From Flavipsychrobacter sp. (GTDB lineage Bacteria; Bacteroidota; Bacteroidia; Chitinophagales; Chitinophagaceae): a DNA stretch of 64,000 bases. This document shows, piece by piece, positions 23,765 to 55,994 of the stretch. Both the position numbers and the translations under genes were made by a program. Position 1 is the stretch's first letter, and every line of letters begins with the position of its first letter. The DNA lies in contig JAFIGV010000019.1 in the NCBI GenBank assembly GCA_017849575.1, positions 186,001-250,000 on the forward strand. Reading direction: 5' to 3'. Below the pieces are notes generated by a model that searched no databases, had not been told where the DNA came from, and saw only the letters and a program-made list of their open reading frames with translations.

Positions 23765-24024
23765 AAATTGTGTAGTGTGTTTGGTTAATTTTTTGCAATT
23801 GTGAGTGAAACGTTTTTCTAAAGGAAATGTTACAATAAGGCCCGGTTGTGTTAAAGCGGCGCGAAGATAAGGGCAATACATTTTTACATATTGTTAAAAA
23901 CATCGGGGTAATGCTCCTGAATACTGAGGCGGAAAATCGCGACAACGAAACCCGATTTTCCGAAAACATTGCCGGGAGCCTTTCCGGCGGCACATTGTTT
24001 TTATAGGGTTCGGAAAAAGAGGTT

Positions 24025-24225
24025 ATGGAAAAACGAATTTTCGGAATCATCCTCACCGTTTTGGGCATTGCCGGGCTCATCATGGCTGCAGTAGGCTTTG
24101 TGAATAGCGACGACAACTGGCGGCAGCTTATCGTTTACGGCACCCTCGGACTTATATTTTTCTTTTCGGGTATTGGCCTTATTCGCTCAACGCACGATGC
24201 TGTGAATGAAAATGAACGAGCCTGA
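24025..24225 (+). CDS. Small two-helix membrane protein
   Basis: The 66-residue product has two predicted transmembrane helices (IFGIILTVLGIAGLIMAAVGF and LIVYGTLGLIFFFSGIGLI) joined by a short charged loop (VNSDDNWRQ), and a charged C-terminus. It resembles small inner-membrane proteins widespread in Bacteroidetes. AGAGG just before the ATG may act as a ribosome-binding site. It precedes the 24249 gene by 23 bp, so the two are probably co-transcribed. Confidence 0.7.
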   Translation: MEKRIFGIILTVLGIAGLIMAAVGFVNSDDNWRQLIVYGTLGLIFFFSGIGLIRSTHDAVNENERA

Positions 24226-24248
24226 TTTTTTATTTAAACCATATCACG

Positions 24249-24629
24249 ATGAATACCGCTGTATTTGTGCTGCTATTTTTTGCTCACGCCTTTCCTACGG
24301 CCACACGCCAATACGTTTATGATCAGGTAGAAATACGTGAAGACGGCTGGCAAAATTTCAAGACAGACACCTATGAGCTTACTGAGGCAAAAGGATGCTT
24401 ATCCCTTGGGCACGGACAACTCCGGATAGGGGAGGAAGTGTTCCGGCTCAAGCCCACAAAACTGCGCCATCAATATCGCATCCCCGGCGGCCGGGTTCAA
24501 TTAATCTACAAAAATCAACGCCTTAGTGCGGTCCGGTTAGTGAAATACCGCCAGGTCTTTTTGTTTCATATCGCGGGGGAAAGCAGTGCTTCGCAGGATG
24601 CCGAAATTGTTTTAGCCCATGAGCGTTAA
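24249..24629 (+). CDS. Hypothetical secreted or membrane-anchored protein
   Basis: The 126-residue product begins with a short hydrophobic stretch (MNTAVFVLLFFAHAFPTATR) that could be a signal peptide, followed by a beta-rich basic domain (DQVEIREDGWQNFKTDTYEL; RIPGGRVQLIYKNQRLSAVRLVKYRQVFLF). I do not recognise it. It overlaps the 3' end of convergent ligA by 18 bp. Confidence 0.6.
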   Translation: MNTAVFVLLFFAHAFPTATRQYVYDQVEIREDGWQNFKTDTYELTEAKGCLSLGHGQLRIGEEVFRLKPTKLRHQYRIPGGRVQLIYKNQRLSAVRLVKYRQVFLFHIAGESSASQDAEIVLAHER

Positions 24630-26699
24630 GAACTCATCTTCCGTAAGAATGGTGACCGTGCCCAGCTTTTTTGCTTTCTCGAGTTTCGAACCGGCGTCTG
24701 CACCCACTACCAGATAGTTGAGTTTGCTGCTCACGCCGCTGAGGATCACACCCGATTTTTCTTCTACCATGGCCTCCGCATCGCTGCGCTTCAGCTTGTT
24801 CAGTGTGCCGGTAAACAGAAAGGTTTTTCCTGCCAGGGCTCCTTCTCCTTGGTCTGAAGATTTGTGATGATTGTAGAGGCTAACGCCCTGCTGCTCCAGT
24901 TCATCGATCATGTGCCGGTTTTCGGCAAGATGGAAAAAATCACAGGCGGCGGCAGCCACTTTCGGGCCTACATCCTCCAACGCCTGAAACTGATCTGCGG
25001 TCCAGTCATAAAATTCTTTCAGGTAGCTTACGGCGTGGGCCAGGGTTTTCGCCATGGTTTCCCCTACATGACGGATACCCAGTCCGAAGATCAGGCGATT
25101 AAGTGGTTCTGTTTTTGACTGTTCTATGGCATTGCTGAGATTGCTGATGGATTTTTCACCAAAGCCCCCCAGTTGCTCTACGCGGCTCCAATCAATACGG
25201 TACAGGCTGGGAATGGTCGTAATGATACCCAGATCAAAAAATTTTTTTACGTTGGCGGCGCCCATACCGCGGATGTCCATGGCATCTTTGCTGCAGAAAT
25301 GGCTGAGGCGTTCTACCACTTGTGCGGGGCAGGAAATGTTGATACAACGCCACACTGCCTCATCGGCTGGTTTTTCCAGGGGTTGCTCACAGTCGGGGCA
25401 GAGAGTCGGAAAAATGATGGGTTGTTCGCTGCCATCGCGGAGCTCAGGCATAGCTTTTACGATGTAGGGAATTACATCGCCCGCACGCTCCACGAGTACG
25501 GTATCGCCGAGGTGCAGGTCTTTTTCCCGTACCACATCTTCATTAAATAGCGAAATAGAAGCCACTGTGACACCGCCAATAGGTACGGGGTCTATTTTGG
25601 CCACGGGCGTAATGCTGCCCGTACGGCCTACCTGAAATTCTACTTTGCGCAGCTTGCTCGTGGCCTGTCGTGCCTTGAACTTAAAGGCCACAGCCCAGCG
25701 CGGGTGGTGGGCCGTCATCCCCATTTTTTCCTGTAGGTCGAAGGAGTTTACTTTTATCACCAGCCCATCTACTTCATAAGGCAGCTCGTCGCGGCGGTGC
25801 TCAAACTCGTGGCAAAAAGCAATGACTTCTTCAATGCTGCGGAATCGTTTCATCTCCTGCACGGGTGTAGGAAAGCCCAGTTGATAGAGATATTGCAAGG
25901 CATCAAAGTGCGTGTGCAACGGTTCCGGTATTTCATTGCCGCTCAGCAAAGTGTAATCGCTGATGTGGTACAGCACAGCCGAAAGTTTTCTTTTCCTTAC
26001 TTCCTCAGGGTCGAGTATGCGCAAGGTGCCGGATGCGGCATTGCGCGGATTAGCGAGAGGCGCCAGTCCTTCGGCAGCCCTTTGTGCATTATAGGCGGCA
26101 AATACCTTTTTATGGATTACTACCTCACCGCGAATTTCGATCTGCGTCAATCCATCCTGCACAAAGGCTGCAGAAAGCGGAATGGAGCGTATCTGTCGTA
26201 CATTGGTGGTTATCTCTTCACCCATCACGCCATCGCCGCGGGTAGCCCCTCTCGTCAGCAAGCCCTGTTCGTACACCAGTGAGATGCTGGCTCCGTCGTA
26301 CTTAGGCTCTACACAATATTCAATGTCGGCTGTGCCGGCCAGATCTTTGCATCGTCTGTCCCAGTCGAGAAGGTCTTCTGCATTATAGGTGTTGTCGAGG
26401 CTGAGCATGGGCACGAGATGTGCAACCGGTGGAAACTTTTCGCTCAGGCCTTTGGCCACTCTTTGTGTAGGAGAATCGCCGGGTATGGATGCCGGAGACA
26501 TTTTCTCAAGCTCGGTAAGTTTTTTATACAACTGGTCGTATTCATAATCCGAGAAGACGGGATCGTTCTGCACATAATACTTCCAGTCGGCGTAGTTGAT
26601 GATGCTGCGCAACAGATCGGCCTGCGGGGGCTGCACCTGGGCTGCGAGCAGTTCTTTGCCGGAGTCATAAAGGTTCTTTTCCTGCACGGGCGTGTACAT
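24612..26699 (-). CDS. ligA: NAD-dependent DNA ligase LigA
   Basis: The 695-residue enzyme seals nicks in replication and repair. An Ia domain is followed by the adenylation domain with the nucleophile Lys133 (EPKYDGASISL) and GATRGDGVMGEE. An OB fold, a four-Cys zinc finger (CPDC...CINISC), helix-hairpin-helix repeats and a C-terminal BRCT domain (GALAGKTFLFTGTLNKLKRSDAEAMVEEKSG) complete the standard order and length. ATG 26699 (MYTPVQEKNLYD) fits the family better than the frame extended to 26768. Confidence 0.97.
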   Translation of the reverse strand: MYTPVQEKNLYDSGKELLAAQVQPPQADLLRSIINYADWKYYVQNDPVFSDYEYDQLYKKLTELEKMSPASIPGDSPTQRVAKGLSEKFPPVAHLVPMLSLDNTYNAEDLLDWDRRCKDLAGTADIEYCVEPKYDGASISLVYEQGLLTRGATRGDGVMGEEITTNVRQIRSIPLSAAFVQDGLTQIEIRGEVVIHKKVFAAYNAQRAAEGLAPLANPRNAASGTLRILDPEEVRKRKLSAVLYHISDYTLLSGNEIPEPLHTHFDALQYLYQLGFPTPVQEMKRFRSIEEVIAFCHEFEHRRDELPYEVDGLVIKVNSFDLQEKMGMTAHHPRWAVAFKFKARQATSKLRKVEFQVGRTGSITPVAKIDPVPIGGVTVASISLFNEDVVREKDLHLGDTVLVERAGDVIPYIVKAMPELRDGSEQPIIFPTLCPDCEQPLEKPADEAVWRCINISCPAQVVERLSHFCSKDAMDIRGMGAANVKKFFDLGIITTIPSLYRIDWSRVEQLGGFGEKSISNLSNAIEQSKTEPLNRLIFGLGIRHVGETMAKTLAHAVSYLKEFYDWTADQFQALEDVGPKVAAAACDFFHLAENRHMIDELEQQGVSLYNHHKSSDQGEGALAGKTFLFTGTLNKLKRSDAEAMVEEKSGVILSGVSSKLNYLVVGADAGSKLEKAKKLGTVTILTEDEFLTLMG

Positions 26700-39547: not shown

Positions 39548-39591
39548 ATCTGAATTCCTATCATTTGTCAACATACCACGCAACGTCCGTT

Positions 39592-39678
39592 ACATTAGCA
39601 CATTAGCACATTAGTACATTAGCACATCAGCACACTAGCACATCAGCACACTAGCACATTAGCACATTAGCACATTAC
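39592..39678. repeat. 8-bp tandem repeat (ACATTAGC), about 11 units
   Basis: Units of ACATTAGC with ACATCAGC, ACACTAGC and ACATTAGT variants run from 39592 into the stop codon of kbl (39675-39677). Variant units alternate in the middle, which suggests block duplication. Confidence 0.9.
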
Positions 39679-40865
39679 TTAATCACCCCGAGCTCTTTCC
39701 CCACTTTTGTAAAGGCGGCGATTGCCCTATCGAGCTGTTCACGGTTGTGCGCCGCAGAAATCTGCACACGAATACGCGCCTGACCTTTTGCTACCACAGG
39801 ATAGAAAAACCCGATCACGTAGATGCCTTCGTCGAGGAGTTTTGCAGCCATTTGCTGCGCCAGCACGGCATCATAAAGCATGATGGGTGTGATAGGGTGC
39901 GTGCCGGGCTTTATATCAAAACCTGCTTCGGTCATCTTACTGCGGAAGTACGTGGTATTGTCTTCCAGTTTGTCGCGCAGCTCCGTGGTTTGGCTCAGCA
40001 TATCGAGCACGGCAATAGAAGCGCCCACTACCGATGGAGCCACGGTGTTGGAAAATAAATAGGGACGGCTACGCTGCCGCAACATTTCGATCATTTCCTT
40101 CTTGCCGCTGGTAAAACCGCCCGATGCTCCACCGAGTGCCTTACCTAATGTGCCGGTAATGATATCTACACGGTCCATAACGCCGCAAAGTTCATGTACC
40201 CCTCTGCCGGTCTTTCCCATAAAGCCGGATGAGTGACTTTCATCAATCATCACCACGGCATCATATTGATCGGCGAGGTCGCAGATCTTATCGAGTTGCG
40301 CAATGGTACCATCCATAGAAAATACAGAATCCGTTACGATCATCCGCGTACGCGCATCTTCCAACGACTGCAACTGAGCTTCGAGATCTGCCATATCATT
40401 GTGACGATAGCGGGCGCGTTTCGCTTTACATAGACGCACACCGTCTATTATTGACGCATGGTTCAGTTCATCAGAAATGATAGCATCTTCCTCTCCCAGC
40501 AAGGGCTCGAACACACCTCCATTGGCATCAAAGCAGGCAACGTAAAGAATAGTATCCTCCGTGCCGAGAAATTCAGAAAGCTTATGCTCCAGTTCTTTGT
40601 GAATATCCTGTGTGCCGCAGATAAAGCGTACGGAGCTCATGCCATAGCCGCGCTCATCAACCGTTTTCTTGGCAGCTTCTAGCACGCGGGGATGGGAAGA
40701 AAGTCCCAGATAATTATTGGCACAGAAGTTCAACACCTTTTTGCCATTTACGGTAATCTCGGCTCCCTGCGGAGATTCGATAATGCGCTCTTTTTTATAA
40801 AGTCCTGCATTTTCTATTTCCTGAAGTTCGTTGTGTAAACGCTGGTAGAACGACTGACTTGACAT
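39675..40865 (-). CDS. kbl: Glycine C-acetyltransferase (2-amino-3-ketobutyrate CoA ligase)
   Basis: The 396-residue PLP enzyme of the alpha-oxoamine synthase family cleaves 2-amino-3-ketobutyrate with CoA to glycine and acetyl-CoA in threonine degradation. PLP-binding Lys242 lies in [32 protein letters not shown] and [10 protein letters not shown] are family motifs. ATG 40865 ([15 protein letters not shown]) matches the usual start. A promoter-like TTTT-N19-TTATTTTG lies 22-52 bases upstream. No threonine dehydrogenase gene is adjacent. The tandem repeat abuts its stop codon. Confidence 0.94.
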
Positions 40866-40998
40866 ATTGCCCAATGATTTTATCCGGCAAAATAAGCATA
40901 AAGCGGGCAGATAGAAAACGCAGTGTAGCTGCAGATGCCTTTGCTCCAAAAATTAGTTAAATCAAATCTGTAACAAGAATGCAGATAGTGCGATCTAC

Positions 40999-41006
40999 TA
41001 CATTTG
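40999..41006 (+). promoter_or_regulatory. -7 box of the gene at 41025
   Basis: TACATTTG is a perfect TAnnTTTG, 18 bases ahead of the TTG start proposed at 41025. No good -33 element is seen. Confidence 0.5.
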
Positions 41007-41024
41007 CAGATTAGTCAAATTCTC

Positions 41025-41759
41025 TTGTTTCGATTTCTTTTTACCATAATGCTGGCCCTGTTGTCAGGAATATCTTCGGCGCAGGTGCTGAAAGGCGAGG
41101 TTGTAGATGGCGAATCCGGCAAGCCGTTGCCCATGGTCGCGGTGTATAACTCAAGAAGTCAGCAATATGTCTATACCGATGTTGCGGGCCGTTTTTCTAT
41201 TTCCGCAGAGCCGGGAGCGATTATCAGTTTTAGCTGTATCGGGTACAAAACACAAACGAAGGTTGTGCCCGTTTCTGATGGTACGGCCACCATGCATATA
41301 GACCTCTTTAAGCTAAGTTATGAATTGGATGAGTTTGTTTATCATCCCCTGTACACGCCCTATCAGATGGACTCTATGGAAAGGAAAAGCACATATCAGC
41401 GCGCGCTGGCAAGAGAACGTGTAAAGAGCGTCATGTCACCGGTAACCTTATTGGCGGATATGCTTTCCAAAAAAAGCAAACAGGTATATCGCTTCCAGAA
41501 GAATTTTAACTACTGGGAGACGATGAAATTTATTGAGTCAAGGTATTCGCCCGAGCTTGTTACCCAAATGACGGGTCTCACGGGCGACACGGCTGCCTAT
41601 TTCATCAATGCGAACCCCATGCCCTATGACTATGCAAGAGTGGCATCCGACCTTGAGCTGAAAATGTGGATACGGGAGCATTACCGGGAATGGATCAAGC
41701 ATCCTGAGTTCGAGAAAATGCCGCAAACTGCGGATTCCACCGCTGTGCAAAGCAAGTAA
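41025..41759 (+). CDS. Secreted CarboxypepD_reg-like domain protein
   Basis: The product of about 244 residues has a signal peptide and a CarboxypepD_reg-like domain (LKGEVVDGESGKPLPMVAVYN...ADVAGRFSISAEPGAIISFSCIGYKTQ, written here in parts). A charged helical part with unknown role follows. The start is unusual: the only ATG in the signal region (41049) would leave too short a signal, while TTG at 41025 gives FRFLFTIMLALLSGISSAQ after the first residue and lies 18 bases behind a perfect -7 box. Domain 1 resembles the N-terminus of TonB receptors, but no plug or barrel follows. Confidence 0.8.
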   Translation: MFRFLFTIMLALLSGISSAQVLKGEVVDGESGKPLPMVAVYNSRSQQYVYTDVAGRFSISAEPGAIISFSCIGYKTQTKVVPVSDGTATMHIDLFKLSYELDEFVYHPLYTPYQMDSMERKSTYQRALARERVKSVMSPVTLLADMLSKKSKQVYRFQKNFNYWETMKFIESRYSPELVTQMTGLTGDTAAYFINANPMPYDYARVASDLELKMWIREHYREWIKHPEFEKMPQTADSTAVQSK

Positions 41760-43575: not shown

Positions 43576-45804
43576 ATGACTTCTGGAAAAAGAGTGCTGA
43601 TCGTCTCAAACAGGCTTCCTGTAAAGATCACCCGAAAAGACGGGGAGATCGCCTATCAAACCAGCGAAGGCGGTCTGGCAACCGGACTGGGCAGCATCTA
43701 CAAACAAGGCAATAACTTATGGATCGGATGGCCCGGCGCGGATCTTACAGATGCCGAGAAGGCTGGGGTCACACAGGATCTTTCCGTCCAGAATCTCTTT
43801 CCGGTATTTCTCACGCAGCAAGAGATCAATGATTATTACGAAGGTTTTTCCAACGAAACCCTGTGGCCTTTGTTTCACTATTTCCCCACTTATACTGAAT
43901 ATAATCCTCAGTATTGGGAAGGCTATCAGAAAGTAAACCGGAAATTTGCCGATGCTATCATTAAGTCGGCCAGCAAGGAAGACGTGGTGTGGATACACGA
44001 TTATCAGTTGATGTTGGTGCCGCAAATGGTGCGCGAGGCAATACCCGAGGTGAGCATCGGATTTTTTCAACACATACCTTTTCCGTCCTATGAAGTCTTT
44101 CGGCTGATCCCCTGGAGGAAGGAATTGCTTAACGGTTTGCTTGGGGCCGATGTTATTGGTTTTCACACCTATGATGACGTTCGCCATTTCATCAGCGCGG
44201 CTAACCGTATTACCGGTCTGAACAATGTGGCCAACGAGGTAGGAGTAGATAGCCGTACGGTGGTTGTAGATGCCTTTCCCATAAGCATCGACTATAAAAA
44301 GTATCGCTCGCTGGCCGAAGATGCCAACACGCGTAGAAATGAACGCAAGCTTCGCCAGCTTATCAACCACAACAAGCTGATCATTTCGATCGACCGGCTC
44401 GACTATAGCAAGGGTATTATAGACCGGCTGCGGGCTTATCAGCTCTTTCTCGAAAATCACCCGGAGCTGCGGGGTAAGGTTTCGATGATACAGTTGGTGG
44501 TACCCTCGCGCGACAACGTGCCGAAATACAAAGAGCTGAAAGAAGAAATGAACCGAATGGTCAGTGAGATCAACGGAAGGTTTTCGACCCTCGGCTGGCA
44601 ACCCATACAGCATTTTTACCGCTCCTTTCCTATCCATTTGCTCTCGGCGTTGTACAAGGCCGCCGATGTGGCATTGGTGACGCCCATGCGCGATGGAATG
44701 AACCTGGTGAGTAAAGAATTTATTGCCAGCAAGACCGATCAGCATGGCGTATTGATCTTAAGCGAAATGGCCGGCGCCTCACGCGAACTTTCAGAAGCCA
44801 TCATCATCAATCCTAACGATGTCTGGGATTTTTCCGAAAAGATATTTCTGGCCCTCAACATGCCCGAGGATGAGCAAAGACGGCGCATGTCGGCCATGCA
44901 GCAGACAGTATCGCGGTTTGATATTTTCAATTGGGTGAAGAATTTCATGGACAAGCTTACTGAGGTGAAAGCCCAGCAGCAGGCCATGCTCACGCGCAAT
45001 ATCAACACTTCCATCCGTCAGAAAATTGCCATCAGTTACTACTATGGCATGAAGCGCATTATTTTTTTAGACTATGATGGTACACTGGTGCCTTTTAATA
45101 AAAACCTTTTGGGCGCTGTGCCCGATGAGCCTTTGCTGGACCTGCTGAAAAAGTTGTCTGCCGATCCGCACAACAAAGTAGTCATCACCAGCGGCAGAGA
45201 CTACCAGACCCTCGACAAATGGCTTGGTCATCTGCCCGTTGACATCATTGCCGAACATGGTGCCTGGTATAAAGACCATGGGAAATTCTGGCGTAGCCGG
45301 CGCGATCTCAACGATGCCTGGAAACAAGAGATCTATAGCGTCATGAATCAGTATGCCCGCCGCACCCCCGGGGCTGCCATAGAAGAAAAAAGTTATTCCC
45401 TGGCCTGGCACTACCGCAAGGTGGAAAATGGCCTGGGCGATCTGCGGGCGCAGGAACTTACGGCAGATATGAAACATCTCGTAGCCGACCGCGGACTACA
45501 GTTGCTGCAGGGCGATAAGGTCATTGAAGTGAAAAGCATTTCGGTGAATAAGGGAAGAGCAGCAAAACGCTGGCTGGAGAAGGAAGAGTATGATTTTGTT
45601 ATGGCAATAGGTGATGATCCTACCGACGAAGACACTTTTAAAGTGATGCCCGAAGGTGCAATCACGATAAAGGTGGGCAGCAAAATTTCTGCTGCTGCTT
45701 ATTTCCTGAGCACCAGCGAAGAGGTGCGGGCACTGCTGTTGGAAATGATCAATTCGCCACATACGGTAGATGAGGCACATCAGTTGCTCAAAGAAGCGAG
45801 CTAA
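43576..45804 (+). CDS. Bifunctional trehalose-6-phosphate synthase/phosphatase
   Basis: The 742-residue fusion makes trehalose from UDP-glucose and glucose-6-phosphate. The GT20 synthase part (1 to about 475) carries [56 protein letters not shown] and [16 protein letters not shown]. The HAD phosphatase part (about 490-740) carries [11 protein letters not shown] near 498 and [10 protein letters not shown] near 679. The ATG start gives the standard N-terminus. The GH15 gene is convergent, and the two together suggest trehalose or glucan metabolism and osmoprotection. Confidence 0.95.
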
Positions 45805-45826
45805 ACGCCTTGCACCATCGTATTCT

Positions 45827-47611
45827 CTATTCGATAAAGCCCGGATAATCCAGTTTTTTGGCTATCCGGTAGGCTGCATTCATGAGCCCTACATGGCTAT
45901 AGGCCTGTGGAAAATTACCCCACTGACTTCCATCCTGCGCATCCACATCTTCACTTAGTAGTCCCAGATGATTGGTAAAACGCAACAGATTGTTGAAGTT
46001 TTCTATAGCCTCTTCCACACGCCCTACGCAGGCAAGAGCTTCTACATACCAGAAGGCGGTGATGAGAAATGTTGTTTTGGGTTTGCCAAAATCGTCGGCG
46101 ACTACATACCTGTAGAAAAGTCCGTGCTCTGCTTTTAATTCTTTTTCCACTGCAGACAAATGGTCTCTGGCCCGCTGCGACGAAGGATCGAGATAATGCA
46201 TCATGATCAGCTGCAGGGTGCTCGCATCGAGTGCTTCAATACCGTCTGCCATAGTATATACTTTCCGCTTTTCATCGTAGCAGCTTTCTATACGTGCGGC
46301 AGCCTGGTGCATCAGCTTTATGGCACGTTCCAACAGATGTTCGTCGCCAATATGCCGCGCCATTTTTATAGCGGCTTTGCACCCCGCCCATTGAAAAAGA
46401 TTGGTGTAGCAGTGATGGTGGGCTAGTGTGCGAAACTCCCAGATGCCCGCATCTGCTTCATCAATAGTTGCCTCTATCTGCGTGAGTATTTCATTGATCC
46501 ACCGCGACGAATCCTGTCTTTCTTCAAAAATAAACCGCCGGTCGGTGTACAGGGGCAACAAAGAAAGCATCACCTGCCCGTAGGTATCGTTTTGTATATG
46601 CTCCACAGCCTGATTGCCGACACGTACGGGTTTATTGCCTTTATAACCTTCAAGGTCCAGTATTTTTTCTTTGAAATCGGCATTCCCGGTTATGGTGTAC
46701 AGCGGGTTGTAGCGTCCGCCTTCGCGGGTAGGAAGGTTGGCAATAAAATGAAAGTATTGTTCGCCTTCCTCAAAATGACCAATATTGTTGAAAGCATTGA
46801 GAATATAGTAAGCATCACGAAGCCAGCAATACCGATAGTCCCAGTTGCGCCCGCTGCCATCGTATTCCGGAAGGCTTGTGGTACTTGCAGCTATTATGGC
46901 GCCGGTATCTTCATACTGATGTATTTTTAACGCCAGTGAGGAACGAATGACCTGGCTCTGATAAAAGTTGCCGATACCGGTATTTTTGATCCAACCGCGC
47001 CAGTAGGCTATGGTTCTTGTCAAAAAATCTTCTGCGGTGGTGAGCAAAGGCGCCTCAAGCGGCAGCCCATAGGTGAGCACCAGATATTTGGTTTCGTTCA
47101 GCACAAAATGCTGTTCGTCGAGGATGAAATTGGTGGATACATTGGAGGTAAGACGCAAAGGGCGTTCGAGCCCCACAAACTCAATGTGGTTGCTGCCTTG
47201 CAAGGGGGTTAAAATGGTTTTGCCGTAGTCGCCCACCGGACGGCAGCTCACTTTTATCTTCGGGCTACCTTCTACCTGTTCTATTTTTCTAATAAACATC
47301 AGCGGCCTGAAATATCGGTCGTATAGTCGAAATCTGGGTGCGAAGTCCGTCACCTTATAGCGGCTGCCGTCTTCACATTGTACCTCTGTCACCAGCACGT
47401 TTGTATTTTCAATATAGCGTTGCGAAGACGTCCAGTTTCCCTGCGGCTGAATGGAGAATTCGCCTCCTCGTTTCGTATCAAGCAAGCTCCCGAAAACAAA
47501 GCTGCTGTCGAAACGGGGCCAGCAAAGCCAGCTTACATTGGTGTCTTTATGAATGTGCGCCAGAAAGCCGCAGTTTCCGATAATGCCGGATTCGTAAATA
47601 TGACGTGCCAT
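45827..47611 (-). CDS. Glycoside hydrolase family 15 protein (glucoamylase/trehalase-like)
   Basis: The 594-residue protein has the bacterial GH15 layout: an N-terminal beta-sandwich (IGNCGFLAHIHKDTNVSWLCWPRFDSSFVFGSLLD) and a C-terminal (alpha/alpha)6 barrel with GRNWDYRYCWLRDAYYIL, DAGIWEFRTLAHHHCYTNLFQWAG and the final WGNFPQAYSHVGLMNAAYRI. The acids in the last two segments fit the catalytic pair. It has no signal peptide, so it is cytoplasmic. Members hydrolyse alpha-glucans or trehalose. Sitting tail-to-tail with trehalose-6-phosphate synthase/phosphatase makes a trehalase role plausible, by inference. Confidence 0.93.
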   Translation of the reverse strand: MARHIYESGIIGNCGFLAHIHKDTNVSWLCWPRFDSSFVFGSLLDTKRGGEFSIQPQGNWTSSQRYIENTNVLVTEVQCEDGSRYKVTDFAPRFRLYDRYFRPLMFIRKIEQVEGSPKIKVSCRPVGDYGKTILTPLQGSNHIEFVGLERPLRLTSNVSTNFILDEQHFVLNETKYLVLTYGLPLEAPLLTTAEDFLTRTIAYWRGWIKNTGIGNFYQSQVIRSSLALKIHQYEDTGAIIAASTTSLPEYDGSGRNWDYRYCWLRDAYYILNAFNNIGHFEEGEQYFHFIANLPTREGGRYNPLYTITGNADFKEKILDLEGYKGNKPVRVGNQAVEHIQNDTYGQVMLSLLPLYTDRRFIFEERQDSSRWINEILTQIEATIDEADAGIWEFRTLAHHHCYTNLFQWAGCKAAIKMARHIGDEHLLERAIKLMHQAAARIESCYDEKRKVYTMADGIEALDASTLQLIMMHYLDPSSQRARDHLSAVEKELKAEHGLFYRYVVADDFGKPKTTFLITAFWYVEALACVGRVEEAIENFNNLLRFTNHLGLLSEDVDAQDGSQWGNFPQAYSHVGLMNAAYRIAKKLDYPGFIE

Positions 47612-47664: not shown

Positions 47665-48714
47665 TTAAGTAACAGAGAGATACCAGCAGGCATAGTGATG
47701 AAGGAAGTTGTTGATCAGCATTACCTTTTTTAACTGTGTGGGCTTGTGCTTTACCTTAAGACTTTCGGGTAAGCCGTCCATCATGGACCGATACAATATT
47801 CCCAGGCCAAAAGACGCATCTACCGGATAGGCTCCGCAAAATTGCTTGAAGGAACCTGTGCTCGTGTCTTTGAATAGTTCATGTTCAAGCCGGTCATAAA
47901 AGCCTTCCGTACGCAGGTCTCCGCTTCTTCCGGTCAAGACGAAATCAATATCTTCTATTGTGAGCTCGCTGCCGGCGATAAAGTTTTTCACCAGGGAAAC
48001 CGCTTCTTCAGTATCGCGTGTGGTAAAGGTGAAGATGTTGTGGATAGCCACCGACCGTTCAGCAGGTTGTCCGCTCACGTAAAAAAAAGATGCGCCTTCG
48101 CCCGCCAGGCTTCCTTTGTCCGGTGCAGCAAGCACACGCTCCGGCAGCGTCTTCTCATGGCGATATACTTTGGCGGTCTGCATTACGGACAGACTGGTTG
48201 CCGTAAGTTCTTCAATGCCACCGACAAGCACGCTTTGTCCGGCATGCTCATTCAAAAACAACGAGGCATTGATCATGGCATGTTCAAAAGAATGCCCGCG
48301 GTGTACATAGGTCAGGTTTTGGCCGTGGCATTGTGTGATCAAGGCGATCTGTCCTGCTACCGTATTGTGTGTAGATTGGATGAAGGCTGTAGGGGTTAGC
48401 ATTTGCTCATCCTGATCAATCATTTTTGAAAGAAATACCTCGGTATCGTGCAGGCAGCCCAAAGCCGTACCTACCGACAAGGCATCGGCGTTTTCTTTCC
48501 CAGACGACTGCAGGCAGATTTTTGCAGCGCCTATGCCCATCCTTACCGCTTTGCTCATTCTTCTAAGTTGCATAGGGGCAATCCAGGGGCTGTAGTCCGG
48601 CTCTTTGCAGAGCAAACTGTCGGTTTCCTGCTGCGGGGGCAAAAACGGAAATCCTGTCGCATCGCTGCTTCCTGCTGCACTTAGCATGCCGGCTCCGTGG
48701 ATGTATATTTTCAT
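47665..48714 (-). CDS. Ketosynthase-like protein without active-site Cys (chain-length-factor type)
   Basis: The 349-residue protein has the thiolase fold of ketosynthases (ALSVGTALGCLHDTEVF, TAFIQSTHNTVAGQIAL, VLVGGIEELTATSLSVM). The segment that normally carries the nucleophilic Cys reads TYVHRGHSFEHAMI, so condensation chemistry is not expected; the histidines of the C-terminal half are also absent. This pattern fits the KS/chain-length-factor partner in flexirubin and aryl-polyene systems. It overlaps the preceding ketosynthase gene by 4 bp (ATGA), so the two probably form a heterodimer. ATG 48714 (MKIYIHGAGMLSAAG) is the start. Confidence 0.85.
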   Translation of the reverse strand: MKIYIHGAGMLSAAGSSDATGFPFLPPQQETDSLLCKEPDYSPWIAPMQLRRMSKAVRMGIGAAKICLQSSGKENADALSVGTALGCLHDTEVFLSKMIDQDEQMLTPTAFIQSTHNTVAGQIALITQCHGQNLTYVHRGHSFEHAMINASLFLNEHAGQSVLVGGIEELTATSLSVMQTAKVYRHEKTLPERVLAAPDKGSLAGEGASFFYVSGQPAERSVAIHNIFTFTTRDTEEAVSLVKNFIAGSELTIEDIDFVLTGRSGDLRTEGFYDRLEHELFKDTSTGSFKQFCGAYPVDASFGLGILYRSMMDGLPESLKVKHKPTQLKKVMLINNFLHHYACWYLSVT

Positions 48715-49904
48715 GCTTTTGAAAAGACTAATGATGAACAATTGCCGCCAAAGCCAAATGAATTGGATAACACATGGCGAAGGTTGCGCCCGGTGAGGAG
48801 TTCGGTCACGGGCTTCCAGTTCAGGTCCTGCATCTGTTTTTGCCACCGCAGGTTTGGAAAGACAACACCATCGCGCAGGGCAAGTGCGCAGAATACGGCT
48901 TCTACACCGCCGCAGCCGCCCAGGGTGTGCCCCGTATATCCCTTTGTTGAGGAGGCCAGGGGAACCGCGTCGCCAAAGATAGCAGCTATCGCTTTCCCTT
49001 CCGAACTGTCGTTGTTGGCTGTGCCCGTGCCGTGCAGGTTGATGTAGTCAATGTCCGCGGGCGAGAGGCCTGCTGTCTGAATGGCCTGCTCCATAGCCAG
49101 TTTATTGCCCACACCCTCCGGCGAAGAAGCCGTCTGATGGTAGGCGTCATTGGCATTAGCATAGCCAGATACAATACATAACGGCTCGGCGCCACATTGT
49201 TTTGCTGCACGTTCGTTCATCAACACCAGGTATCCGGCGCCTTCCCCCAGGTTCAGCCCTCGTCGCTCATCGTCGAAGGGCTGGCAGGGCTGTCGATCGA
49301 GGATCATGAGTGTGTTAAACCCATTTAGGGTAAACCGGGAGAGGCAATCAGCCCCGCCGGCCAACACCACATCGAGCATGCCACTGCGTATCATTTGTGC
49401 TCCCATCATAATGCTGTTGGCAGAGGAGGAGCATGCCGTACTGATAGTGCTCACAAAGCCATGGATGCCCAGGTGCTGCGCTACGAGTTCCGTTATCGCA
49501 CCACATTCGTGATGAATGATCTCACCCACCACCTTTGGGTCATGTTGCTCCTTTATTTCCCGGTAAAGGCCTTCTGTAAGGTCCATACCGCCAACGGTGT
49601 TTGCCGATATAAACCCTGTCTTTAGCCCGGCAGTTTTGCCGGCAAAGGGCTGGCAGGCCTCCATGGCCGACACCGCACTAAGCAGGGCAGTGCGCGGATA
49701 TCCTGCATTCATTCCGGTGAGGGCTGCGAGCTGTTCGTTACTGTATTTTACCTCGCCCACCGGCAGTTCCTCCTGCCAGTGAGTTTTCAAAAAATCAGCC
49801 TTACCAATACCGGTGCTGCCAGCTTTGAGCGCCCGCAGACAAGCTTCAGTATCCGCGCCGATTGCTGTAATAACGCCCGTATTTACCCCATAAACTTTAT
49901 TCAT
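48711..49904 (-). CDS. Beta-ketoacyl-ACP synthase of pigment biosynthesis
   Basis: The 397-residue KAS II-type enzyme has the complete catalytic set: Cys158 (STACSSS), His291 (NLHGTGTANND), Lys321 and His326 (STKGYTGHTLGG). It elongates ACP-bound acyl chains with malonyl-ACP. Its partner is the Cys-less protein that follows with a 4-bp overlap. With the short KS-like protein, halogenase-like enzyme and methyltransferase encoded nearby on the same strand it points to a flexirubin or aryl-polyene-type pathway. ATG 49904 (MNKVYGVNTGVITAIG) is the start. Confidence 0.9.
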   Translation of the reverse strand: MNKVYGVNTGVITAIGADTEACLRALKAGSTGIGKADFLKTHWQEELPVGEVKYSNEQLAALTGMNAGYPRTALLSAVSAMEACQPFAGKTAGLKTGFISANTVGGMDLTEGLYREIKEQHDPKVVGEIIHHECGAITELVAQHLGIHGFVSTISTACSSSANSIMMGAQMIRSGMLDVVLAGGADCLSRFTLNGFNTLMILDRQPCQPFDDERRGLNLGEGAGYLVLMNERAAKQCGAEPLCIVSGYANANDAYHQTASSPEGVGNKLAMEQAIQTAGLSPADIDYINLHGTGTANNDSSEGKAIAAIFGDAVPLASSTKGYTGHTLGGCGGVEAVFCALALRDGVVFPNLRWQKQMQDLNWKPVTELLTGRNLRHVLSNSFGFGGNCSSLVFSKA

Positions 49905-50111
49905 CAAAAACCTGAGTTTGCACCCACGAATATAAAGACATCTTGTTGCCTGTAGCATCAGCTTCAGAGGTAACATAATAAGAAGAATGCTTGCGGATAC
50001 AAAAATCCTATTAACCCCAACTTAAGTCTCCGGTATATGCCCTTGGATGGTTGCTAATGCCGGTGCATGCCATAACCGCAAATGGCTATTCTTGAATTTG
50101 CTAAATATTTT

Positions 50112-50119
50112 TATGTTTG
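50112..50119 (+). promoter_or_regulatory. -7 box of the plus-strand insert genes
   Basis: TATGTTTG is a perfect TAnnTTTG. CTTG at 50091-50094 could be the -33 element (17-base spacer). The TTG at 50142 lies 22 bases downstream. Confidence 0.5.
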
Positions 50120-50141
50120 CTTTTGGTTAATGATTTTTTAA

Positions 50142-50591
50142 TTGAATTCTTATAGATTCGAAAGCATGGGCATGGGCGAAGAAGCAAGGATAACAAGGAC
50201 AGTTTTTGTTGAACCGGCTCAAGGGCAGGTTGCGGTCGCTTTGCGGTTTACGCATCCGGTCATTATGTCGGCAACTTACCAACTGAAGGTTTTTTCGGAT
50301 AGGGGGTCATCTTCGTGTTTGCTGAAGGCCGGTTCGAATACAGATGATCATGACGAAATGATTGGAGTTCCGGCCGACTGGCTGGCTACAGGGGTGGTGG
50401 ATGTAGTGCTTAGCGTTGAGGTCGAAGGGCAGCAGTACGAAGCCTATCCGCACTATGACATTGTGATGGAAATTTACCAGCAAGGAAAATTAGCGGGCTT
50501 TACCCATGAGCAAGGCGTGCTCGATGGGTCGCGCCGGCAGATGGATCTGGTCTTGCGGCTGAGGTGCGGTGCGGCGGAGAAAAGGGCCTAA
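50142..50591 (+). CDS. Hypothetical protein upstream of the muramidase
   Basis: The product is 149 residues from TTG 50142 (or 141 from ATG 50166). It is a soluble, beta-rich protein (ARITRTVFVEPAQGQVAVALRF; VVDVVLSVEVEGQQYEAYPHYDIVMEIYQQGK) with no signal peptide, no Cys cluster and no motif I know. The TTG start is favoured by its distance to the promoter. It precedes the muramidase gene by 47 bp on the same strand, so a joint role is possible. Confidence 0.65.
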   Translation: MNSYRFESMGMGEEARITRTVFVEPAQGQVAVALRFTHPVIMSATYQLKVFSDRGSSSCLLKAGSNTDDHDEMIGVPADWLATGVVDVVLSVEVEGQQYEAYPHYDIVMEIYQQGKLAGFTHEQGVLDGSRRQMDLVLRLRCGAAEKRA

Positions 50592-50638
50592 AATAGCTCC
50601 GGCCCCGGCAAAACTTAGGGTACTAAAACAAAATATAC

Positions 50639-51223
50639 ATGGCTATTACAGAACAACAGTACAAGAAGGTGGCTTCCAGCCTGGGTTGTGAAGTAGCGTC
50701 GATTAAGGCGGTTGAGAAAGTGGAATCGAGCGGAAATGGTTTCCTAAAAGATGGCCGGCCAAAAATTCTATTCGAAGGTCATATATTTTGGAAACAATTG
50801 CTTGCCATGGGTAAGAACCCCACAGCGCTGAGGAAGGGCAACGAAGATATTCTTTATCCTACCTGGAATATCGATGTTGTGCGGCCCTTATACAAACTCG
50901 ATCAATACCAAAGGCTCGAAAAAGCCAAGAAGATAGACGAAACGGCAGCTTTGAAATCTGCCTCCTGGGGAGCCTTTCAGATCATGGGTTTCAACCATAA
51001 GGTATGTGGATTTGCCACGGTACAAAAGTTTGTTCAGGCGCAGCAGGATGAGTTCGAACAACTCAGCGCCTTCGCCAATTATCTACTCAACACGCACCTG
51101 AGCGTCAATCTGAAACACAAAGACTGGAAAGGCTTTGCCAGAGGTTATAACGGTCCGGATTATTGGAAGAATAAGTATGATGTGAAGCTTAAAGCGGCCT
51201 ACCAGATGTTTGCGAAGGTTTGA
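50639..51223 (+). CDS. N-acetylmuramidase-family (DUF3380) peptidoglycan hydrolase
   Basis: The 194-residue protein matches the DUF3380/muramidase fold: IKAVEKVESSGNGFLKDGRPKILFEGHIFW with its central Glu as candidate catalytic acid, SASWGAFQIMGFNHKVCGF and GFARGYNGPDYWKNKYDVKL. Such enzymes cut the glycan strand of peptidoglycan and are common in phage endolysins and contractile-injection or secretion loci. It has no signal peptide and no cell-wall-binding domain, so export would need a holin or another system. None is seen here. Confidence 0.88.
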   Translation: MAITEQQYKKVASSLGCEVASIKAVEKVESSGNGFLKDGRPKILFEGHIFWKQLLAMGKNPTALRKGNEDILYPTWNIDVVRPLYKLDQYQRLEKAKKIDETAALKSASWGAFQIMGFNHKVCGFATVQKFVQAQQDEFEQLSAFANYLLNTHLSVNLKHKDWKGFARGYNGPDYWKNKYDVKLKAAYQMFAKV

Positions 51224-51281
51224 CGCTTCGGAAATAACCTTTTCCAAAGGGATTTTTTTCCTCCTTTTTAAGTTCAATTTT

Positions 51282-51575
51282 ATGATCCACGTACACGACA
51301 TCTTTGTTTGCAAACCAGGCATGGCTTCGAAGCTTGCAAAAAAATTTAAAGAAGCCATGGAGGGCGATACCAGCCTTGTACATATTATGACCGACATGAC
51401 AGGCACCTACAACAGGGTAATCATGGTGACGCAGTTTGAAAACCTCAGCGACTATGAAAAAAGTTGGGAGAAATACCAGCAGCAATCTGAGGAAATGAAA
51501 AAAATGATGGAGAAGATTGAAGGCTATCAGGAAATGTTTCTCACAGGATCGCGGGAAATTTTTAAAGTCTGGTAA
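51282..51575 (+). CDS. Dimeric alpha/beta-barrel (NIPSNAP-like) protein
   Basis: The 97-residue protein starts at ATG 51282 with MIHVHDIFVCKPGMASKLAKKFKEAM and continues THIMTDMTG-like and RVIMVTQFENLSDYEKSWEKY segments, the ferredoxin-like pattern of NIPSNAP/ABM domains. These small proteins act as dimers, sometimes as monooxygenases or carriers. The longer frame from 51210 has no sensible N-terminus. It is convergent with the ketosynthase-like gene. Confidence 0.8.
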   Translation: MIHVHDIFVCKPGMASKLAKKFKEAMEGDTSLVHIMTDMTGTYNRVIMVTQFENLSDYEKSWEKYQQQSEEMKKMMEKIEGYQEMFLTGSREIFKVW

Positions 51576-51650
51576 ATGTCCACAGCCTATTTCTAACAAA
51601 GGTTGGTTAGGAACACCCCTACCCAAGTAGTTACCAATGTATGCTGTATT

Positions 51651-52235
51651 TTATTTTGCTAACGCCGTGGGTGTGAAGGCTGCACCGTTTCCGTGTTTTG
51701 CGATCCAAAACATACTCAGGTTCGCCTGTTGGTCGTAGGCGTCCACCCAGCCGCAGAGACAAGCATCCATTTCACGATGTTCGAGCAAGTCTTTTACCCA
51801 GAAATAAATTTCTGCCGGATCAAAAGAATCCTGCACCAGACAGGTCTGCTCGCCCTTGAAACCATGGCGGATGCAGATTTCTCCCAGCATGATATTGCTT
51901 AGGGTATAGACAAATAGGGCCGGGCTTGGGATGTCGGAAACGGTTTCCTGATAGCGCTTGTCAACGTCAAGGCAACCATGCCGTGTAGCCAGCACCACCG
52001 CTATTTTCTCTTTGTCGTTTCCCTCATAGAGAAAGCTTTCGCTTTGCTTCAACAGTATTTCTGCTCCCAGCCATGCCCATTTGCTCAAGATATCCATCTT
52101 GAAAAATTTAGGATAGTTTCCGGGCAAAGAACGGTAAGCGGCTTCCGGCGACGATGTGTCAATAGCCAATGGCTTTTTGTCGCGAAGCATCACGCCCTCG
52201 CGGAGAACAACACTATGCAGGATAGAAAGATTCAC
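51651..52235 (-). CDS. Short ketosynthase-like protein of flexirubin-type loci
   Basis: The 194-residue protein starts with GTG at 52235. It has KS N-terminal features (FKMDILSKWAWLGAEILL; IAVVLATRHGCLDVDKRYQET; PALFVYTLSNIMLGEICIRHGFKGEQTCLV) and ends before the Cys-His-His half. Proteins of this size and sequence type are a regular member of flexirubin gene clusters; their role is not known. It follows the halogenase-like gene by 20 bp. Confidence 0.8.
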   Translation of the reverse strand: MNLSILHSVVLREGVMLRDKKPLAIDTSSPEAAYRSLPGNYPKFFKMDILSKWAWLGAEILLKQSESFLYEGNDKEKIAVVLATRHGCLDVDKRYQETVSDIPSPALFVYTLSNIMLGEICIRHGFKGEQTCLVQDSFDPAEIYFWVKDLLEHREMDACLCGWVDAYDQQANLSMFWIAKHGNGAAFTPTALAK

Positions 52236-52255
52236 TAACTAAATAGAGCGGTTGC

Positions 52256-53497
52256 CTATGCTGAAGCCTTTTGTGTGGTAAGGTAGCGACTAAGCGTGCG
52301 CACGTTTTTCTCGTGATTTTTTACAAATGGATTATTGTCATCCCACACATAGCCCGCCAGCACCGAGCAAATTTGTGACATGATCTCGGGGTTGCGGTTT
52401 TCTGCAAAGAAAATGTTGAAAAGACTACCATCATACCATGCATTTACATAGGTACGAAACACGTCTACGCCTGCCATCATTTGTTTCATATACTCATTTT
52501 CCCAGTCCACCGGTTCGCCCCGAAGATGCCGGATGACAAGGTGTGCGGCCAGTTGTGCCGAGACGGCGGCCAGTGTCACACCCGATGAAAACACAGGATC
52601 GAGAAACTCTGTTACGTTGCCGGTCAGCACAAACCCTTCGCCGTAAAATGTATCAGTGGTTACACTCCAGCTTTGCAGCGTGCGGGGTTCCCATAGCATT
52701 TCTGCATTGCCGAACCGGTCTCTTAATTCGGACTGTGCCTGTATCAGTTGGCGAAATTGTTCTTCCGGTGTGCCTTCATATTGCTCAAAAAACTCAGGAC
52801 TGCCTACATAGCCCACCGAGGTATTGCCGTTCGAGAAAGGGATGACCCATATCCAGGTCGCAGGGTCGTGTACAAATATGGTAATACGGTTGGGCTCAAC
52901 CGCCGCGCTTCGATTGGGGTCGGTGAGGTGGCAGAAAAGCGTTTTGCGGGCCGCCTGCGACGAAGCGCGTTCAAGGCCAAACAACTTCGGTATTACTCGT
53001 CCATAACCGCTGCCATCCACTATGAATTTTGCTTCGATCTTCTGCTCATTTCCGTCGGCAGTTTTCACTACGATCACCGAGTGGTCGCTGAAGATCTGAA
53101 TGTTTACAACTTCGGTTTCATAATGGATCGGTATATCCATCTTCACACATTCATCGGCCAGTGTAGTATCAAACTCTGCCCGTGGCACCTGCCAGGTCCA
53201 GCTCCAGCCCGGGGTAAACTGCTGAGAGAAATTGAAATCGCAAACCTGACCTTCCATCACGAACTTGGCGCCGTCTTTCTGTTGGAAATGTTTTGCCTTC
53301 ACTGCATCCAGAAATTTCGCTTCTTCCAGGGCTTCCATACACCGAGGCAACAGGCTTTCACCAATCACAAATCTGGGAAACTTCATTTTTTCAACGATCT
53401 GAACGGAAAGGCCGGCTTGCTTGATAATCGAAGCGGCTATTGTTCCTGACGGACCGGCACCTATTACCAATACGTCTACTTTTGTAATGCTATTCAT
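52256..53497 (-). CDS. Flavin-dependent halogenase-like oxidoreductase
   Basis: The 413-residue FAD enzyme has GAGPSGT at 13-19, GESLLPRCM at 46-54 and the halogenase WxWxIP motif at 215-220 (WIWVIP). A Lys at 74 in FQQKDGAKF may be the catalytic halogenase lysine, by comparison with family members. The fold is shared with geranylgeranyl-reductase-type and tryptophan-halogenase-type enzymes. Flexirubins are often chlorinated, so this is a candidate chlorination enzyme. It sits 54 bp behind the methyltransferase gene and 20 bp ahead of the short KS-like gene. Confidence 0.85.
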   Translation of the reverse strand: MNSITKVDVLVIGAGPSGTIAASIIKQAGLSVQIVEKMKFPRFVIGESLLPRCMEALEEAKFLDAVKAKHFQQKDGAKFVMEGQVCDFNFSQQFTPGWSWTWQVPRAEFDTTLADECVKMDIPIHYETEVVNIQIFSDHSVIVVKTADGNEQKIEAKFIVDGSGYGRVIPKLFGLERASSQAARKTLFCHLTDPNRSAAVEPNRITIFVHDPATWIWVIPFSNGNTSVGYVGSPEFFEQYEGTPEEQFRQLIQAQSELRDRFGNAEMLWEPRTLQSWSVTTDTFYGEGFVLTGNVTEFLDPVFSSGVTLAAVSAQLAAHLVIRHLRGEPVDWENEYMKQMMAGVDVFRTYVNAWYDGSLFNIFFAENRNPEIMSQICSVLAGYVWDDNNPFVKNHEKNVRTLSRYLTTQKASA

Positions 53498-53552
53498 AAG
53501 GGGTAAATTTCCATTTAAAAATCAGTGCTTAAATGGGGATCGGGTAATAAAG

Positions 53553-54644
53553 TTATTTCTTTTGCAGTTCCAAAACAGTATGTCCGAGGCCAATGTTATC
53601 TTTTTGTTTAACAACGGCAAAGCCCGCCTCATCAATAAATCTGAAGAAAACCTCGCTGTCATACATCTGACTGTTGCCATTGGCCATCGTGGTGAAATAG
53701 AGTGAAGTCATTTGGAGGCTAAAGGCAGAAGCCGGGAATCGCTGTACGTCCCAAAAAGTTTCGTTAATGAAAATACGGCCATCTGCAGACAAAGCCTGAT
53801 GACATTTTTTTAAGATCGAAACTATTTCCGCATCGGCAAAACAGTCCAGAAACTGGCTCATCCAGATCACATCATACCCGGAAGGCAACTCCGTTTCCGG
53901 CAATAATACATTCCGCGGATTATAGGTCACACGGTGCCCGAAGCCGGCATCTTCGATGTTTTTTCGGGCCACTTCCAGTTGTATGGGCAAATCTACAAGG
54001 CCCACTTCCACTTCCGCATCGTATTCCAGACAAGCAAGGGTGAACTTGCCCGTGTTGGCACCGATATCCATAATTTTTTTGGGCCTGCCTGCAAACACAA
54101 TGGGCAGCGCCTCCGGAAAAGCATTGTCTGAGTAGTAATGATCGAATTTGAACCAGCTTGTTTTTGCAGGTTCAGGAAGTTTGGAAAGACCCTGATAAAT
54201 AGTGTCCCAATTGCCAAGGTGATGCAGACCACGCGGCTGACCTGTTTCGAGTGAGGCTTCAAGATCGGCAGCGCCTTCGTAACATACATCGCGCATAAAG
54301 TCTGTATTGACTACAGACATGTGATGGTTGATAAAAAAGTGGCCGGTCTTACTGAGGAAATAACGGCCCTCTCGGCGCACCACCAGGCCAATGCCCAGTC
54401 CGGCCTCCAGCAATACCCGCACGGCATAATGGCTCATGCCCACTATCTGTTTTACGCCTTCTATCGAAATGCCTTCATCGCGGGCATTATCCACAGCACG
54501 CAGTATGCCTTTGTCCCTCAGCAATACTGAGGCCTGAAAGATATAAGGTGCGAAGGCAATGAACTGCGCCCGTGATATTGCTTCGACAGCAGACATCTTA
54601 TCTTCTTCGAAAAGAGATGCTTTCTTTACCGGTGTATCGATCAT
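53553..54644 (-). CDS. SAM-dependent O-methyltransferase
   Basis: The 363-residue protein has an N-terminal winged-helix dimerisation part (residues 20-110: AVDNARDEGISIEGVKQIVGMSHYAVRVLLEAGLG) and a Rossmann methyltransferase part with KIMDIGANTGKFTLAC (glycine-rich SAM loop) and VIWMSQFLDCFADAEIV. This matches plant/bacterial small-molecule O-methyltransferases. It is the first gene of the minus-strand pigment block, behind a perfect -7 box. Flexirubin aryl heads are often methylated, so the substrate may be the aromatic end of the pigment. Confidence 0.88.
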   Translation of the reverse strand: MIDTPVKKASLFEEDKMSAVEAISRAQFIAFAPYIFQASVLLRDKGILRAVDNARDEGISIEGVKQIVGMSHYAVRVLLEAGLGIGLVVRREGRYFLSKTGHFFINHHMSVVNTDFMRDVCYEGAADLEASLETGQPRGLHHLGNWDTIYQGLSKLPEPAKTSWFKFDHYYSDNAFPEALPIVFAGRPKKIMDIGANTGKFTLACLEYDAEVEVGLVDLPIQLEVARKNIEDAGFGHRVTYNPRNVLLPETELPSGYDVIWMSQFLDCFADAEIVSILKKCHQALSADGRIFINETFWDVQRFPASAFSLQMTSLYFTTMANGNSQMYDSEVFFRFIDEAGFAVVKQKDNIGLGHTVLELQKK

Positions 54645-54664: not shown

Positions 54665-54672
54665 CAAAAATA
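54665..54672 (-). promoter_or_regulatory. -7 box of the methyltransferase-halogenase block
   Basis: On the minus strand TATTTTTG is a perfect TAnnTTTG 20 bases before the ATG. A CTTG about 23 bases further upstream is the best -33 candidate. Confidence 0.5.
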
Positions 54673-54746
54673 CGTAAGAATCAGCGGGTTCGGCTCAAGA
54701 GTGACAGAATTGCCCGTAAAATATTAAACGAATCCCTTCAACCCAG

Positions 54747-54797: not shown

Positions 54798-55994
54798 CTA
54801 CTCTTCAAGCGCATGGACGCTGCGCAGCAGGCGCTTCCAGCGAATACCATGTTCTCCGTAGCTCAGCCATACAAACCAGGCCTTGCCCACAATATGATCT
54901 TCAGGTACAAAACCCCAGTAGCGGCTATCGAGTGAGTTGTGACGATTATCGCCCATCATCCAGTAATAATCCATCTTGAACGTATAGCTTGTAGCCGGTT
55001 TTCCGTTGATGATAAACTGTCCGTTGCTTTCCTGAAAGTCATTGCCTTCATACACATCAATGATGCGGCGATACAGAGCAATGTTCTGAGTTGTTAACTG
55101 TACCGTGCTCCCTTTTTTGGGAATCTGCAGCGGGCCAAAGTTGTCAATATTCCAATGGAAATGTGCTGTGTCGTGGGGGAAAATAATCGGTAAGGGAAGC
55201 ATTTCTCCGGCTTTGCTGATCACTGGGATAAACCGGACCACCTGCGGCATCTTTTGCACCTTGGGCACCATTTCATTTTCTATGTACAGATGATATCGGT
55301 TTCCGGAAACCGCCGCCACTTCAACACCATATTCGTCGAGTGCATCTTCGTCGAGAGGGCTTCCGTTGGTAATGACCTCATAGTCCATTTTTGAGTGTGG
55401 AAAAAGAGGCGACTGCTGTCCGTTCACAAACACCACACCGTCCCGGATCTCAAGCGTTTCGCCGGCAATAGCTACGCACCGTTTGATGTAATTGTCGGTT
55501 TTATCCACCGGCCTTGTCTCGATCGTGTATTTTGTATGCACTACGTTTCGGCCTTCCTGCATCACCGCCAGATAGTAATCTTCCTCCGGCCTTTCCTTCA
55601 TAATAGTATCTCCTTCCGGAAAGTTGAAGACGACTACATCATTACGTTCTACATCTCCAAATCCCCACCAGCGATGATAGTCCCATTTCACCGCATCGCT
55701 ATAAGATTTTCCGCCAGTCACAGGCATGGTATTGTGCACCAACGGCACAGAGAGCGGCGTCATAGGGATGCGCGGACCATAAGAGATTTTACTAACAAAG
55801 AGATAGTCGTTGACGAGCAAACTGCCTTCCATAGAGCCTGTTGGGATGGTATAGGCCTCTACCAGAAAAGTGCGGATAAGTGTGGCGGCCACAATCGCAA
55901 AAATTGCAGCATCAAGCCACTCGCGCGCTACCGATTTTTTCTTTTTTTCTTTTTTATTGTCGGCTTTTTCTTTTCTCCAGAAAGCAAGTCGCAT
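54798..55994 (-). CDS. lepB: Signal peptidase I
   Basis: The 398-residue inner-membrane serine protease removes signal peptides from exported proteins. One N-terminal membrane helix (LDAAIFAIVAATLIRTFLV) precedes the catalytic Ser54 (PTGSMEGSL). The general-base Lys171 lies in NYIKRCVAIAGE, and MMGDNRHNSLDSRYWGFVPEDHIVGKA is box E. The insert between boxes D and E is long, as in Bacteroidetes homologues. The basic N-terminus (KADNKKEKKKK) is cytoplasmic. It is a single-gene unit. Confidence 0.95.
   Translation of the reverse strand: MRLAFWRKEKADNKKEKKKKSVAREWLDAAIFAIVAATLIRTFLVEAYTIPTGSMEGSLLVNDYLFVSKISYGPRIPMTPLSVPLVHNTMPVTGGKSYSDAVKWDYHRWWGFGDVERNDVVVFNFPEGDTIMKERPEEDYYLAVMQEGRNVVHTKYTIETRPVDKTDNYIKRCVAIAGETLEIRDGVVFVNGQQSPLFPHSKMDYEVITNGSPLDEDALDEYGVEVAAVSGNRYHLYIENEMVPKVQKMPQVVRFIPVISKAGEMLPLPIIFPHDTAHFHWNIDNFGPLQIPKKGSTVQLTTQNIALYRRIIDVYEGNDFQESNGQFIINGKPATSYTFKMDYYWMMGDNRHNSLDSRYWGFVPEDHIVGKAWFVWLSYGEHGIRWKRLLRSVHALEE

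Follow-up and report, generated by a model that had tools for sequence, protein, structure and literature searches.

Five flx genes of Flavipsychrobacter sp. as a very probable piece of a flexirubin pathway dispersed over about ten loci

Introduction

Flexirubins are yellow-orange bacterial pigments that serve as a standard taxonomic marker, and the gene cluster behind them is a standard target of genome mining. In Chitinophaga pinensis the cluster comprises flxA-flxY, accompanied by a separate darA/darB pair (PMC3992019); it corresponds to MIBiG BGC0000839, as cited in PMC9248904. In this pathway tyrosine is deaminated and activated, type II fatty-acid-like enzymes are proposed to build the polyene, and the product is joined to a dialkylresorcinol (PMC3992019). 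Flavobacterium johnsoniae UW101 holds the same pathway in a contiguous 37 kb cluster that includes darA/darB (PMC3992019). The pathway for the polysaccharide sanxan of Sphingomonas sanxanigenens, in comparison with relatives, is reported to be scattered but belongs to a different chemistry and phylum (PMC5399355). The open-access literature that we searched, which leaves most subscription journals outside its coverage, held no account of dispersed flexirubin genes.

We analysed a window of 64,000 nucleotides, bases 186001-250000 of contig JAFIGV010000019.1 (C8) of Flavipsychrobacter sp. (GCA_017849575.1); positions given without a contig are those of the window. Compared with C. pinensis this genome carries the same flx genes in the same order within the blocks A-B-C, D-E-F-G-H-I, J-K-L-N-O and P-Q-R-S. 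However, while C. pinensis holds 25 genes in one run of 25.6 kb, the Flavipsychrobacter genes occupy about ten loci and flxM is not in place. The window very probably contains one piece of an almost complete flexirubin pathway whose genes ancestrally formed a single cluster and are now divided into about ten small operons in a Taibaiella/Flavipsychrobacter/Edaphocola-like lineage of the Chitinophagaceae. Outside this lineage, relatives mostly retain the genes in a single block.

Results

Five flx genes in the window

Five intact open reading frames, all on the minus strand, were found at 47665-54644. The product of flxJ (53553..54644), a SAM methyltransferase, matched the NCBIfam family FlxJ_fam_MTase with 481 bits (E 1.7e-144), i.e. 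below the curated cut-off of 560, a value that no genome in a sample of 147 from the family reached. The gene is 49-79% identical to flxJ of relatives. Since FlxJ is only about 50% identical to the Chitinophaga type, the exact product of the pathway may differ. Downstream, flxK (52256..53497) encodes an FAD-dependent halogenase-like enzyme of the Trp_halogenase/CmlS type, and flxL (51651..52235) a half-length ketosynthase-like protein without active-site cysteine, which is syntenic in relatives, had no Pfam match and gave weak matches of the FabF type. Family matches and residues identify flxN (48711..49904) as a ketosynthase in which the Cys-His-His triad (C158, H291, H326) is present, and flxO (47665..48714) as a chain-length-factor-like partner in which the active-site cysteine and both catalytic histidines are replaced. 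The most likely corrected starts lie at 49904 for flxN and 48714 for flxO, such that the flxN stop overlaps the flxO start (ATGA at 48714-48711).

The genes are flanked by two non-pathway markers on the same strand: the signal peptidase gene lepB (54798..55994), which precedes J-K-L-N-O in the loci of many relatives, and a GH15 glycosidase gene (45827..47611), which follows it in several. A putative fused trehalose-phosphate synthase/phosphatase gene adjoins the GH15 gene (43576-47611).

Orthologues of J-K-L-M-N-O were located within a contiguous flxA-flxU run in C. pinensis YS-16 and other named Chitinophaga, where A to U follow in order within the 21 kb fetched. An uninterrupted run was seen in five genomes (G106, G029, G127, G008 and G108) in the order ammonia-lyase, KR, KS, ACP, acyltransferase, DH, LolA-like protein, thioesterase, KS, methyltransferase, FAD enzyme, short KS, ACP, KS and CLF; in G106 it extends to Y. 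This run fits flxA to flxO of the C. pinensis cluster, Cpin_1853 to Cpin_1877, and we assigned the flx letters from gene position and from the functions given there (PMC3992019). The places of the orthologues in the contiguous runs thus make the window genes flxJ, K, L, N and O, with flxJ-K-L and flxN-O keeping the C. pinensis order. Given that the same gene order recurs in dozens of named genomes, the set is not a product of chance. The sequence-only reading had recognized five proteins of flexirubin-cluster kinds, with a Cys-less partner next to a full ketosynthase. Both assignments were borne out, the former by the orthologues inside the Chitinophaga run and the latter by the residues of FlxO and FlxN, and the synteny comparison with Chitinophaga clusters that it had proposed gave a matching J-K-L-N-O order.

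Between flxL and flxN the piece is interrupted by three plus-strand genes (50142..51575) that encode a protein without assigned family (50142-50591), an N-acetylmuramidase (50639-51223) and a NIPSNAP-like protein (51285-51575). The block was seen between L and N in none of the 80 related loci and is therefore probably local to the Flavipsychrobacter sp. lineage. As J-K-L-N-O is unbroken in the closest relative found, the gap looks like a later interruption. Its surroundings showed no sign of a mobile element: direct repeats were absent, and the inverted repeats amounted to two weak pairs. In G117, a genome of the same genus, the N-O piece is likewise preceded by divergent genes, among them one for a lysozyme-like protein.

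The remaining pathway genes

Concatenated protein queries located pathway genes at nine more loci, spread over five other contigs of this essentially complete genome (3.61 Mb, 32 contigs), which makes ten loci with the window. Contig C16 carries flxA-B-C (169376-174335), including the gene of a FlxA-like ammonia-lyase (172713-174335). An extra small gene, PIN-domain-toxin-like as judged by eye, sits between flxC and flxB (C16:170600-170995). Five pieces lie on C1: flxP-Q-R-S (23497-25854), darB-darA (39577-41659; 39% and 50% identity), flxW-T (263643-266539), flxU (321638-325474) and flxD-E-F-G-H-I with one extra gene between G and H (350268-354536). The others are flxV (C25:135794-137308), the aryl-CoA ligase gene flxY (C19:5794-7107; 56% identity) and a second ACP-KS-CLF trio (C30:89499-92050), whose best match is a trio near darA/darB in G029. 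While its counterpart lies near darA/darB, the C30 trio stands alone; its candidate roles are supply of the resorcinol alkyl chain or replacement of flxM.

Both genes predicted to provide a 4-coumaroyl starter, FlxA-like and FlxY, are thus present. Synteny and similarity also point to genes for carrier protein, KR, DH, TE, acyltransferase and MMPL-type proteins (C1:350268-354536, C16:171275-172003, C30:91793-92050, C1:321638-325474), and dehydratase genes occur elsewhere in the genome as well. Two genes were not found: flxM is lacking from its usual place between flxL and flxN, in the window as well as in those dispersed genomes that were examined, and the concatenated query, which may overlook a short diverged gene, did not recover flxX (AcpS). 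Since other ACPs are present, this pair is not a pathway-defining feature.

These loci settle the choice between a dispersed pathway and a reduced or side branch that had been left at first reading. DarA/DarB, ammonia-lyase and ACP genes, for which a genome search had been suggested, were all found elsewhere, such that the missing core lies on other contigs and the pathway is dispersed rather than reduced. The description of the locus as split in two holds for the gap between flxL and flxN, which is real, but falls short for the pathway, which is in about ten pieces. With its genes at ten loci, the pathway is present but is not organised as what is usually called a flexirubin gene cluster.

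Dispersal is old and marks one side of the rpoB tree

Dozens of genomes in the clade of the Flavipsychrobacter genome have J-K-L-N-O as a separate piece, often with lepB nearby. These include Flavipsychrobacter MAGs, and several copies adjoin GH15. In Taibaiella and Edaphocola strains only J-K or J-K-L are still together. On CP075895.1, the finished chromosome of a relative, we found A at about 0.19 Mb, J at 0.35, I at 1.22, darB at 1.74, W at 1.91, V at 2.07 and Y at 2.55 Mb, i.e. pieces separated by 0.15-0.87 Mb; in C. pinensis YS-16, A to Y lie inside 25.6 kb.

In a midpoint-rooted rpoB tree of 30 genomes a branch with an SH-aLRT support of 99 parts 13 genomes in which flxJ is linked to its cluster neighbours from 16 in which it is loose and one that has lost the flx genes. 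Linkage was checked in 13 of the 13 linked genomes, six of which (G007, G123, G119, G009, G022 and G058) themselves show partial rearrangement or incompleteness over the stretch inspected. Fourteen of the 16 loose genomes were mapped piece by piece, with G106 as contiguous control; for G125 and G101 the surroundings of flxJ were inspected. Contiguous genes also occur in outgroups, among them Solitalea and Chryseolinea, which makes fragmentation the derived state. A tree of the FlxJ protein with coarse stand-alone/cluster labels gave three changes and long branches, and the rpoB tree was relied on instead. Within the clade the break-up is ongoing: in G117, J-L, K and N-O are spread over three contigs. 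In four loci (L083, L118-L120) flxK is missing between J and L.

Co-occurrence and joint loss

Among the 147 family genomes, FlxJ and FlxW, which are unlinked in the dispersed clade, occurred together in all 41 FlxJ genomes and in 41 of the 42 genomes with either protein, and the completeness of the lone genome with FlxW but no FlxJ is 69%. DarB accompanied FlxJ in 40 of 41. These counts and their p values ignore shared ancestry. In the one exception, G099, DarB was not found although FlxJ and FlxW are present. In G020, a genome of the same genus, a search for FlxJ, FlxW, DarB and further markers found none of them. Its place in the tree implies an ancestor with genes already dispersed, in which case linkage would not explain the joint loss. 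The scattered pieces behave as one pathway.

A probable promoter upstream of stand-alone flxJ

The motif TAnnTTTG is the -7 box, the promoter consensus of Bacteroidota. It was found between 10 and 80 nt ahead of the flxJ start in 30 of the 43 copies that stand alone (the window included), compared with 0 of 21 clustered copies and 6% of shuffled sequences. Across the stand-alone loci the box is mostly TATTTTTG at about -27. In the window the probable flxJ promoter (54665..54698, minus strand) consists of TTG and TATTTTTG, at -28 relative to the start codon. As the box precedes stand-alone but not clustered flxJ, the flxJ piece seems to have its own promoter. A 12-mer search upstream of 11 piece starts detected no operator shared by all of them, the best motif occurring in 4 sequences as against 3-4 in shuffles, and scans for sigma-70 promoters and terminators gave no more hits than shuffles did.

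Discussion

Judged from its genes, Flavipsychrobacter sp. most likely makes flexirubin from separately expressed small operons. In the scheme that we propose, a FlxA-like enzyme would deaminate tyrosine and FlxY would activate the product. A FlxN/FlxO-type pair would then extend the chain together with other KS, KR and DH enzymes, with FlxD or the C30 ACP, supplied from other loci, standing in for the missing FlxM. The aromatic ring would be methylated by FlxJ and halogenated or oxidised by FlxK, and DarA/DarB would make a dialkylresorcinol, with which the polyene acid would form an ester. Each piece would be expressed from its own promoter. In the open-access literature searched we found no pigment data for Flavipsychrobacter sp. 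and little for the lineage.

We regard it as rather probable that, early in one Chitinophagaceae lineage, a 25-gene pigment cluster fell apart into about ten operons, each with its own promoter, that the pathway went on working, and that its genes have since then been retained or lost together. That draft assembly or binning instead created the dispersal is extremely improbable: The Flavipsychrobacter assembly does come in 32 contigs, but most pieces are embedded deep within a contig and flanked by unrelated genes on either side, one contig carries five of them 14-222 kb apart, and the piece-by-piece maps of 14 genomes are in agreement. Moreover, the pieces are equally dispersed and far apart on finished CP075895.1, for which reason we do not take dispersal as an assembly artefact. 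The window genes could also be a reduced relic or side branch outside a working pathway, as the three-gene interruption and the loss of flxM in this genome and the loss from G020 of every marker looked for might suggest. This is very unlikely, given that the five reading frames are intact, the catalytic residues of FlxN and FlxK are kept, a conserved promoter box lies upstream of flxJ and the other pathway genes are present in the genome.

A more plausible, though still tentative, possibility is that the dispersed genes make a modified pigment that differs, for instance, in the length of its chain, the decoration of its ring or the partner in the ester, which would be a sub-case of the flexirubin pathway favoured here and not its opposite. 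With FlxM gone, FlxN/FlxO must use another carrier protein, which speaks for a modification, and flxM is absent from the J-K-L-N-O piece throughout the dispersed genomes examined. The lack of flxK between J and L in some loci, with flxK located elsewhere in G117, and G099, in which DarB was not found, point in the same direction. On the other side, darA/darB accompany FlxJ in all FlxJ genomes but that one, and nearly all other genes are kept as for ordinary flexirubin.

The predicted ring chemistry can be specified further for two of the enzymes. In C. pinensis, labelling showed that the ring that stems from tyrosine gains a methyl group from methionine and loses one deuterium (PMC3992019). 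By this evidence FlxJ, initially read as an O-methyltransferase, is more likely a ring C-methyltransferase of the aryl polyene. FlxK keeps the GxGxxG motif (13), the catalytic K74 and WxWxIP (215-220). Its closest solved chain is the flavoprotein 3NIX (541 bits), a close relative, and it shares K74 and WxWxIP with the flavin-dependent halogenases CmlS (3I3L) and PltA (5DBJ). FlxK may thus halogenate or oxidise the ring. Chlorinated flexirubins are known, but the C. pinensis flexirubin, C43H54O4, is chlorine-free (PMC3992019) despite the flxK in its cluster. From their families, FlxN and FlxO would form an elongating ketosynthase pair.

The chemistry of the pathway was already known, and the interesting part is its conserved fragmentation. 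If the proposed history is true, the lineage represents a natural experiment in which the flexirubin pathway is independent of physical clustering, and a group of producers that would largely escape cluster-finding software: With about ten unlinked pieces, a pathway should appear incomplete to any tool that relies on clustering. The sister groups with contiguous and dispersed genes offer a clean comparison that bears on why bacterial pathway genes cluster and on the fate of regulation once genes are unclustered.

Other arrangements of these genes were also seen. Two compact loci (L134 and L139) carry DarB, DarA, E, D, C, B and A on one strand and a divergent J-K, with no I or L-O nearby. Brumimicrobium (L126 and L129) has another rearranged cluster, in which H-I-L-M-N-O-P-Q-R is followed by J, thus apart from I, and then by Y-W-V on the opposite strand.
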